64,000 nt of DNA from Chloroflexota bacterium (GTDB lineage Bacteria; Chloroflexota; UBA11872; VXOZ01), in NCBI GenBank assembly GCA_028874195.1, contig JAPPLM010000053.1:1-64000 (forward strand), written 5' to 3'. A program made the position numbers and the translations under genes. The notes below the pieces were generated by a model. The model was not told the DNA's origin. It ran no database searches and worked only from the letters and a program-made list of their open reading frames with translations. Positions 46,426 to 49,643 of the stretch are shown here, one piece after another. Numbering within the stretch: the stretch's first letter is position 1; each line of letters begins with the position of its first letter.

Positions 46426-46588
46426 CCCACGTTCCGGCACGTTCTACTCTTCAATCCCAACAGTGGCACGCCAGAGAACGTAGCATGGCTACTACTAGGT
46501 CTAACCATGCAGTTCCAAGCCTGCTCAAGGCCCTGGGCGACTCCTCGTATACTGGGGTTAGTTGCCTAGGAATCCGGTGAGTTTACCA

Positions 46589-47652
46589 ATGGCCTTTGCA
46601 CCCCGTTTTACCATCACGAACGCAATCACCGCGGCGCTCACTGAGATCGAGCGCGCGCGGGGCTTTCTGGAAGCGGCGACGCTGACGGATGCGTGGTTCG
46701 ACGCGATGCGTTCAGAGGCGTTTGTGCGGGAAGCGCATCACACGACGCATATCGAGGGCACGCGGCTGACGCTGGAGGAGGCAGCGGGTCTGCTGGCGGG
46801 CCGTGACGTGCCGGGAGCGGATGCCGACGACGCCCGCGAGGTGCTTAACTACCGTGAGGCGTTCGCATTCGTCAGCGCATACTTCAGCGACGGCGGGCCG
46901 CCGCGTGAAACGCGGCCGATTACCGAGCGGCTCATCCTGGAAATCCATCGGCGCTTGGTGGCCGGCGTGCGTGGTGGATCTGCGGCGCCGGGGCAGTACC
47001 GCCGCGTGCAGAACTACGTCATCGATGCGACCACCGGCGCGACGATCTACACGCCGCCGCCGACCGCAGACGTGCCCCGGCTCATGGGCGAACTGGGGGC
47101 GTGGTTGAACCGCCCTAGTGACATGCACCCCGTCATCGTCAGCGGTATCGCGCAATTCCAACTGGTGCACATCCATCCCTTCCTGGACGGCAACGGGCGC
47201 GCGTCGCGGCTGCTCTCGACGCTCTGCCTCTACCGCGCGGGCTATGACTTCAAGCGGCTCTTCACGCTGAGCGAGTACTACGACCGGGACCGAACTGCGT
47301 TCTACGGCGCTCTGCAAGGCGTGCGGCGGGCAAACATGACCTGACCGGCTGGCTCGAGTACTTCACGCAAGGCCTTGCGACCCAACTGGCGGAGGTCAGG
47401 CAGCGGGGAGAGGCAGCGATCCAGCAGGATGCGCTGGCGCAACGCCACGGTCTGACGGAGCGGCAGGCACGCGCGCTTGGACACGTGCTGGAACGCGGCA
47501 GGATTACGATTGCCGAAGGCGAAGCGCTCTTTCCAGAGGTGTCACGGCGGACGCTCCAGCGCGACTTGAGGGCCCTGGTGGAAAAGGGGTTGCTCCAGCG
47601 TCGGCAAGGCACGAACCGGCTGGAGTACGTGCTAGCGGATAGTTCCGGCTGA
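46589..47652 (+). pseudogene. Fic-family AMP-transferase-like gene with a frameshift
   Basis: The first frame (ATG 46589, GGTGAG upstream) encodes the Fic domain with the inhibitory motif THIEG (TTHIEG fits S/T-x-x-x-E-G/N) and the catalytic [12 protein letters not shown], then stops at 47344. The C-terminal winged-helix part (GWLEYF..., then RRTLQRDLRALVEKGLL) continues in another frame to TGA at 47650-47652. One base lost between about 47328 and 47335 explains it. Fic proteins AMPylate targets and often pair with such DNA-binding tails. The catalytic domain itself is intact, so a shortened protein may still be made. Confidence 0.8.
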
Positions 47653-47686
47653 ACTTGCGACAAACTTGCGCCACAACTTGCGACAG
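47652..47686. repeat. Three short AACTTGCG.CA units after the fic gene
   Basis: AACTTGCGACA, AACTTGCGCCAC and AACTTGCGACAG follow one another directly after the frameshifted fic stop. Too short to assign a role. Confidence 0.4.
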
Positions 47687-47849
47687 AGTTGTGAAAATCG
47701 AACCGCGTCGTGCGGCTGGCGCGAACGTCTATCTACACATGGTGAAGGCTTTAGCTTGCTTTCGGCTAAGCACTTTGCCGAGACGGTGTCCGTGCTTTGG
47801 CGCCAAGGAAAAACATCCAGTGAGTCGCTGGCAAGAGTGGCGGAAAGGT

Positions 47850-48962
47850 TTACCCCCAGATGTTGCGGGCGGTCTCGGCGACGATGCGGAGTTTCGCGTT
47901 TTGCTGCTCGATGGTGATTGGATTGCCGACGATGGATGAGGCGAACCCGCACTGCGGACTGATGGCGAGTTGCTCGAGCGGGAAGTGGCGGGCAGCCTCG
48001 GCGACCCGCGACTCAAGCTCGGATACGTTCTCCGCACGTGGTGACTTGGTCGTGACCAGCCCCAGCGCCACGAGCTTGTCGTCTGGCACGCCGCGCAGAG
48101 GCTCGAATGAGCCGGAGCGGGGGTCGTCGTATTCCAGCATCAGCCGCTGCGCGTTTATGCGCTGGAGAACCGGCTCAACTATCCGGTCGTAACTGCCTTG
48201 GACCAGCCAACGGCCGCCCTGGTTCCCGCGTCAGAGGTGGACGGCGAAAACGACTTCTGAGAAACCGTCCATCACGGCGTTGTCCAGCTCGACGCCCTGG
48301 GCAATCCAGTCCTCCGCAGACCAGCCCTGGGACTCGTAGAATGCCGCCCACTGCGGATCCAGCACGAGTGGGTAGTGCGGGGCGTCGAGTTGGATGTAAT
48401 TCGCCCCCAGCCTGATCAGTTCTGCAATCTCCTCACGGACAATCAGCGCGACATCGGCCAGAAACGCATCCAGCGTGGGGTAGGCCCCAGCGGACGTCGC
48501 CGGCGACCAGAAGTTGGCGAAGAGGCTGGGGCTCGGCAACGTCACCTTTACGATGCGGGAAGTGCGGCCGCGCAGGTAGGTGAACTCCTCGGCAGACAGG
48601 TGGCGCTTCCGTTGGAGGCGACCGACGACACCCAGTGTCGCGGGACGTTCCGTGCGCGCGTCTCCTACTTGCTCGTCGCCCTGCCAATCGCCCCAGAGGA
48701 ACGCGTCGATGTCGAACTCGCCAAAGCCCGCGACCGCCTCGGGCATCTGACTCTGGAACGAGAGCCGGCGCATTTCGCCGTCGGTGAGGATCTCAAGTCC
48801 GGCCTCCTCCTGGGCAGCCACGGCGCTATCGACGGCGGTGTCCTCGGCGCGCTTGAATGCCGCGGGCACAATGCGCCCGGCCGCAAAGTCCTCGCGCGCG
48901 GCGAGGAGCTCCGGCGGTCTAATGAGGCTCCCAACGACATCGGCATGAGGGAGATTCAGCAT
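47850..48962 (-). CDS. MetE-like (cobalamin-independent methionine synthase II family) protein with in-frame TGA at a zinc-ligand position
   Basis: The frame of 371 codons, stop included, is full length for the family: it starts MLNLPHADVVGSLIRPPELL, has ILTDGEMRR and ANYIQLDAPHYPL, and ends with SPQCGFASS. One codon, 244 (48231-48233), is TGA. It stands where the family has the zinc cysteine of the HxC motif (here H242-L243-TGA), followed by RGNQGGRWL. In E. coli MetE the zinc is bound by His641, Cys643, Glu665 and Cys726; the later cysteine is kept here in SPQCGF. Either selenocysteine replaces this cysteine or the gene is inactivated by a point mutation. The substrate may be homocysteine or another thiol. 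Confidence 0.75.
48200..48219 (-). promoter_or_regulatory. SECIS-like hairpin downstream of the TGA codon
   Basis: On the mRNA, GGGCGGCC-GUU-GGCUGGUCC folds with eight pairs (two of them G-U) and one bulged G. The apical loop GUU begins 20 bases after the UGA. Bacterial SECIS elements usually have a loop of 3-14 bases, G in one of its first two positions, 16-37 bases after UGA; this hairpin satisfies all three. It overlaps conserved codons (GGRWLVQ), so chance is possible. Confidence 0.4.
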
Positions 48963-49260
48963 GGCGAACAGCCCCGCAATTCTTGGCGGTTTGGGGTAGA
49001 TAAGTCGGATCTGCCGAGTAGGTGGCTTACCCAGACGATCCGGGCAGCGACAACGCGGCGTTCCATCCAACTTTGGGACCCAATTGCGGCGAGACCAGCA
49101 GCAGCAACCGAGCAAGCGCCGCCACGCGAGCACACAATGACTGACCCCATGCGGCTCATTTCAACCACGGGCTTCACTCCAAGGGAATAGCGGTAACTCC
49201 GATGCAGAATTCTCCGCTTGCCGATGTGTATGAACTCCGCCGGCCCATCAGTAGGTCGAG

Positions 49261-49419: not shown

Positions 49420-49643
49420 CTTCGACCCTTCGGCAAGCTCAGGGCAGGCAAGGCTCAGTGTGAACGGCAAAGGGGCTCCGCGTTCATGCTTCGACAAGCT
49501 CAGCACGAACGGTTATAAGGCCATTCGTTTCACACTTCAACAGGAGCGCGGCGCAGCCGCCTCAGCAGCGAACCGTGAGAGCAGCATTCCGTTCACGCTT
49601 CGAACCTGCGGCAAGCTCAGGCAAGCGAAGCTCAGCGCGAATG
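49420..49643. repeat. Cluster of TTCGACAAGCTCAG-type repeats beside tRNA-Leu
   Basis: Three related units (49420-49467, 49489-49512, 49598-49643) share TTCGA...GGCAAGCTCAG and a GCTCAG.G.GAA.GG end. They fill most of the 309-bp gap between tRNA-Leu and the flavoprotein gene, and I see no gene there. Such units are dispersed in many environmental genomes. Confidence 0.7.

Follow-up and report, generated by a model that had tools for sequence, protein, structure and literature searches.

The DNA analysed here (hereafter referred to as the window) comprises 64,000 nucleotides from a Chloroflexota bacterium (assembly GCA_028874195.1, contig JAPPLM010000053.1, positions 1 to 64,000), and its minus strand carries a gene for a MetE-like protein that we predict to be a selenoprotein (Table 1). 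Reading of positions 48962..47850 on the minus strand confirmed the claim of a first-pass annotation that codon 244 of an otherwise intact 370-codon frame is TGA. This codon is the only in-frame TGA, lies in the context H-L-TGA-R-G-N and is followed by a further 126 codons. The same annotation had placed the TGA at a zinc-ligand cysteine, and residue 244 indeed aligns with the HxC cysteine of MetE.

Table 1 Coordinates of the MetE-like gene and its features in the window
Feature	Position	Strand	Remarks
Predicted MetE-like selenoprotein gene	47850..48962	-	370 codons, then TAA; the TGA at codon 244 is read through
TGA codon 244, putatively read as selenocysteine	48231..48233	-	Aligned with the zinc-binding HxC cysteine of MetE
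SECIS hairpin	48201..48219	-	Spans +12 to +30 downstream of the UGA, with GUU (48209-48211) as its apical loop
His242 codon, predicted zinc ligand	48237..48239	-	Invariant in 49 sequences; aligns with the HxC histidine of MetE
Glu277 codon, predicted zinc ligand	48132..48134	-	Invariant in 49 sequences; counterpart of Thermotoga maritima Glu642
Cys338 codon (SPQCGF), predicted zinc ligand	47949..47951	-	Present in 48 of the 48 sequences reaching this column

The genes beside the MetE-like gene had been described as damaged, which holds for at least one of them: a Fic-like frame at 46562-47344 on the plus strand is frameshifted near 47330. The whole Fic-like gene spans 46562-47660 (+), breaks near 47330 through a frameshift or an assembly error, and resumes in another frame, which encodes a winged-helix-like C-terminal part. 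On the other side, the intergenic region at 49420-49640 contains several similar stretches of the TTCG..AAGCTCAG..GAACGG type; a scan for the TTCG..GAACGG-type pattern, allowing at most three mismatches, scored only one of them (49490-49512).

Recurrence of the TGA codon

The TGA is common to three species of the window genus, the proteins of the other two being 95% and 94% identical to the window copy, and the start and stop positions of the congeneric orthologues are identical to those of the window copy. Over the 126 codons past the TGA, comparisons of the TGA copies yielded nonsynonymous-to-synonymous ratios of 9:20, 6:17 and 6:20, an excess of synonymous changes indicating that the downstream part is under selection as protein. 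A fourth congener (L018) has TGT at codon 244 and encodes a 91%-identical protein, so that the alignment of close homologues at this column, as the first-pass annotation had proposed, gave TGA in two congeners and TGT in one. In the tree, the TGT copy is nested inside selenocysteine (Sec)-bearing relatives, with the Sec-bearing L110 as outgroup, and is most simply read as a Sec-to-Cys loss.

The congeneric genomes resemble the window solely in the MetE-like gene (window 47820-49077 compared with L177, L178 and L179). Their neighbouring genes differ, with a nitrile hydratase beta subunit beside it in two of them (G004 and G005), as if the MetE-like gene had moved.

Beyond the genus, the protein was found in 66 of 400 sampled genomes of the phylum at E ≤ 1e-60, and none of these 66 carriers has an internal stop in it outside the window genus. 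A scan of 84,980 species genomes with the pattern H-x-TGA-R-G-N-x8-G-x-Y returned 44 loci, and 34 of these proved to code for relatives whose TGA is at the same codon; among the 34, L092 is a fragment, and L134 and L135 encode proteins identical to those of congeners found earlier. The other ten were dropped as chance matches (L095, L100, L109, L111, L114, L117, L118, L120, L126 and L133). The TGA loci are distributed over about nine phyla, including Chloroflexota, Poribacteria, Methylomirabilota, Tectomicrobia, Acidobacteriota, Planctomycetota and Nitrospinota, and further occur in a Desulfobacterales genome and in 'Deltaproteobacteria'/Binatia. Given the strict motif of the scan, the Sec family is probably larger than counted here. 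In a maximum-likelihood tree, all 36 Sec rows group in a single clade, inside which nine Cys rows are nested (support 96/99), although the Sec share of this clade is overstated, because the scan required TGA.

These data bear on the rival view raised in the first-pass annotation, a fresh nonsense mutation, and on the related one of a sequencing error, in either case in a decaying gene; we consider both extremely improbable. In their favour are the frameshift in the Fic-like neighbour and the Cys found in most Chloroflexota homologues. However, the damaged neighbour has no bearing on the MetE-like gene, since the MetE-like frame is intact apart from the TGA. The TGA is not confined to the window copy but is shared by three congeneric species and occurs in about 30 further species, and the Cys congener is itself nested inside Sec relatives; purifying selection past the TGA and the conserved SECIS hairpin (see below) likewise argue against decay. 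A base-calling error is untenable, as the TGA recurs in independently assembled genomes, and recurrence together with selection on the downstream codons rules out a lone nonsense mutation or error. An alternative genetic code was also ruled out: the TGA aligns with Cys, and long open frames of the window are closed by the three stops with similar frequency (TGA 13, TAG 12 and TAA 10).

Selenocysteine machinery and the SECIS hairpin

The first-pass annotation had proposed a search of the genome for selA, selB, selD and tRNA-Sec, and all four are present in the window genome (3.5 Mb, 98% complete). The tRNA-Sec scores 67 bits and is called SeC with anticodon tca by ARAGORN, and SelB, SelA and SelD score 377, 571 and 381 bits, respectively. 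This SelD (L057, G000:C63) has an in-frame TGA of its own in the expected Sec loop (SCAG-U-AGK), with hairpins downstream. The tRNA-Sec is present in all five well-assembled genomes of the genus, including that with the Cys copy; the sixth genome is just 69% complete. Among the 34 genomes carrying TGA loci, 27 contain a strong tRNA-Sec (at least 67 bits), and the remaining seven assemblies appear fragmentary.

The SECIS-like hairpin that had been described at 48200-48219 is present, pairing from +12 (48219) to +30 (48201) with the loop GUU at +20 to +22. Across the alignment, 95% of the cells pair, and the covariation score exceeds those of all 500 shuffles and all slid controls. The hairpin lies wholly within the unspecified N24 of the scan pattern, and its conservation is thus not a search artefact. 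The partners of the pair +15/+27 are the third bases of codons 249 and 253, and they covary among C-G, G-C, A-U and U-G, mainly through synonymous Gly and Leu codons. Changes on both sides occur in this pair only, because the protein fixes most of the other positions.

The apical loop is GGU (28 genes) or GUU (7 genes) in all 35 distinct Sec genes. Its middle base falls on the third position of an Arg codon, and this codon is CGG, CGT or AGG in every one of the 35 Sec genes; elsewhere in the same genes, the commonest Arg codon is CGC. The use of CGG/CGT differs between Sec genes and close Cys genes (Fisher p = 7e-6, relatedness not corrected). In the nine close Cys homologues, the loop is GCU in six and GAU in one, and only L018 and L064 have GUU or GGU. 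In agreement with the expectation that the hairpin would be restricted to TGA-bearing copies, the loop is kept in all of the Sec genes and in just these two of the nine Cys genes, which look like recent Sec losses. L064 (G091:C67:1632-2729), from another family of the phylum, is a Cys copy with an intact SECIS-like hairpin and a GGU loop, in a genome that has SenA; its Sec-to-Cys change was probably recent.

The gene shows the marks of a bacterial selenoprotein: an in-frame UGA at the Cys position of the homologues with conserved coding sequence downstream of it, the Sec machinery in the genome and a hairpin just 3′ of the UGA whose loop starts with G. With the TGA common to two congeners and about 32 loci in other species, they support the selenoprotein reading of the first-pass annotation. 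We place the probability that the gene codes for a genuine selenoprotein, with Sec at the zinc-ligand position, at roughly 0.93, and the support for Sec coding is as good as sequence permits. In the proposed mechanism, the SECIS hairpin directly 3′ of UGA244 would recruit SelB with Sec-tRNA, and selenocysteine would be inserted at the position of the HxC cysteine of the homologues.

A Sec member of this family appears to be new, as the first-pass annotation had surmised: the family is absent from the 119-family table of a May 2026 review (PMC13188914) and from the passages retrieved from a 2022 list (PMC9312934), and NCBIfam release 20 contains no selenoprotein model for it. Literature searches for selenoproteins with methionine synthase, or for selenoneine with MetE, returned nothing on point within a scope that left subscription journals and preprints largely outside. 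In our reading, these proteins make up a new selenoprotein family of MetE-like zinc methyltransferases, in which a selenolate is predicted to bind the zinc and which has apparent ties to selenoneine metabolism. Neither the breadth of the family nor these ties had been anticipated in the first-pass annotation. The selenoproteome would thereby gain a family outside the usual thioredoxin-like redox proteins, with genes that standard annotation would break in two at the UGA.

Fold and predicted zinc site

The MetE-like frame matches Pfam PF01717 (66 bits, cut-off 21), and its matches to NCBIfam PRK06520 and PRK06233 are full-length, although too weak for their thresholds (220 bits against 313 and 202 bits against 576, respectively). 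An AlphaFold2 model of the protein (pLDDT 93.6) matches 1ypx and MetE structures. PDB 1ypx is a single-barrel MetE-like protein of unproven function. The window protein shares the fold and the HxC...E...C site with these single-barrel proteins (PF01717; PRK06520/PRK06233; PDB 1ypx) over its full length, but they have Cys where it would have Sec, and no selenoprotein version is listed for them. It shares with MetE (T. maritima 1xpg and Candida albicans 3ppf) the C-terminal catalytic barrel, the His, Cys, Glu and Cys ligand positions and the homocysteine contacts. Unlike MetE, it would have Sec in place of one zinc-ligand Cys, and it is not a classical two-barrel enzyme: its 370 residues align with the C-terminal barrel only, and the N-terminal, folate-side barrel is absent.

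In T. maritima MetE, the HxC and PxCG cysteines are zinc ligands, together with a Glu (PMC539065). Residue 244 (Sec or Cys) is invariant in our alignment, and Cys338 aligns with the PDCG (PxCG) cysteine of MetE, the counterpart of T. maritima Cys704. The assignment of Glu277 as the counterpart of Glu642 was drawn from motif order and the published T. maritima ligands (PMC539065). In addition, Ser12, Glu63 and Asp193 are invariant and align with the homocysteine-holding Ser411, Glu462 and Asp577 of T. maritima MetE. These correspondences suggest that Sec244 is very probably a zinc ligand, and we expect, with somewhat less assurance, that the protein catalyses methyl or alkyl transfer. The enzyme would be a single-barrel, MetE-like protein with His242, Sec244, Glu277 and Cys338 as predicted zinc ligands, in which the zinc-selenolate site would activate the substrate, a thiol or selenol, so that a methyl (alkyl) group can be transferred to it. 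If Sec244 is a zinc ligand, this would be the first selenolate-ligated catalytic zinc site known to us from nature. Cys versions, among them the 91%-identical TGT copy (L018) of a sister species, would allow a direct comparison with the Sec enzyme.

Alternatively, Sec244 might not bind zinc at all and might instead form a selenenylsulfide with Cys338, the protein being a reductase or peroxidase built on the MetE fold. A redox function is ascribed to most of the known prokaryotic selenoproteins (PMC13188914), and zinc-free MetE has a disulfide between the equivalent cysteines (PMC539065). Nevertheless, neither the four zinc-ligand positions nor the homocysteine contacts vary among Sec and Cys members, which counts against a redox role, as a redox enzyme would not need all of them, and we consider such a role improbable.

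Genomic association with selenoneine metabolism

Selenoneine is a selenium antioxidant, and SenA is its synthase. In Methylomirabilis (L093), the Sec gene has EgtD (381 bits against a cut-off of 291) on one side and SenA (515 against 420) on the other, and in Poribacteria (L098), the genes next downstream of it are SelD (312 bits against a cut-off of 125) and SenB (401 against 300); the SelD of the Poribacteria clusters is a Sec-type SelD. In Planctomycetota (L107), SenA, SenB, the Sec gene and EgtD stand in a row, with a betaine-type transporter adjoining. Using tblastn, we found such neighbours (EgtD, SenA, SenB or SelD) also in L096, L113, L124, L127, L104, L106, L119 and L125, so that selenoneine-type neighbours occur at 11 of the 34 Sec loci, many of which are short. 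None was found near the nine close Cys homologues in the available sequence, in which several contigs are short, and the contrast with the 11 of 34 Sec loci is statistically weak.

Of the 32 carrier genomes that do not belong to the window genus, 23 have SenA above its cut-off and five more have partial or weaker matches (28 of 32). In a draw of 395 genomes from one carrier phylum, strong SenA was present in both carriers (in one of them split across two contigs) and in none of the 393 non-carriers (p = 1.3e-5; 2.7e-4 when five weaker matches are counted). SenA was absent from all six genomes of the window genus, and selenoneine synthesis therefore cannot be the setting there. The enzyme of these Chloroflexota might act on imported selenoneine or a related compound.

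The described selenoneine cluster consists of SenA, SenB and SenC only, with no MetE-like component and no selenoprotein besides selenophosphate synthetase mentioned (PMC10891094), whereas the Sec gene adjoins SenA, SenB, SelD or EgtD in several phyla. The mlp clusters (PMC10418091) also contain methyltransferases of the UroD/MetE superfamily tied to methyl-selenium metabolism and the Sec machinery, but these are corrinoid-linked MtaA-like proteins of anaerobes from another branch, with no Sec reported in the methyltransferase. From its genomic company, we lean towards a role of the Sec enzyme in selenoneine or methyl-selenium metabolism. More tentatively, and at less than even odds, it may be a missing enzyme of selenoneine metabolism, a zinc-selenolate methyltransferase that transfers a methyl group onto or off selenoneine or a small selenol; selenium would then be both catalyst ligand and substrate. 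The gene is proposed as a further, unstudied component of selenoneine metabolism; the lineages carrying it include uncultured ones, for example Poribacteria, Methylomirabilota, Tectomicrobia and Binatia.

The plainest alternative is the recycling of homocysteine generated by EgtD, which produces three S-adenosylhomocysteine molecules per hercynine. The protein would again be a true selenoprotein, but beside egtD/senA it would simply remethylate homocysteine to methionine, its Sec mainly guarding an oxidation-prone zinc site. EgtD is immediately upstream of the Sec gene in L093, L096, L113 and L124, the homocysteine-holding residues of MetE have invariant counterparts in Ser12, Glu63 and Asp193, and the disulfide between the equivalent cysteines of zinc-free MetE (PMC539065) is consistent with such sensitivity. 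However, Poribacteria pair the Sec gene with SelD and SenB rather than EgtD, the window genus lacks SenA and yielded no EgtB-like match at the threshold used, and the protein has no folate domain. We consider homocysteine recycling less likely than not. In the Deltaproteobacteria/Binatia genomes, the Sec gene (L094, L097, L101, L112, L115, L116 and L129) is mostly followed by a TauE/SafE-type permease gene on the opposite strand, and isochorismatase-type and amidohydrolase genes recur nearby.
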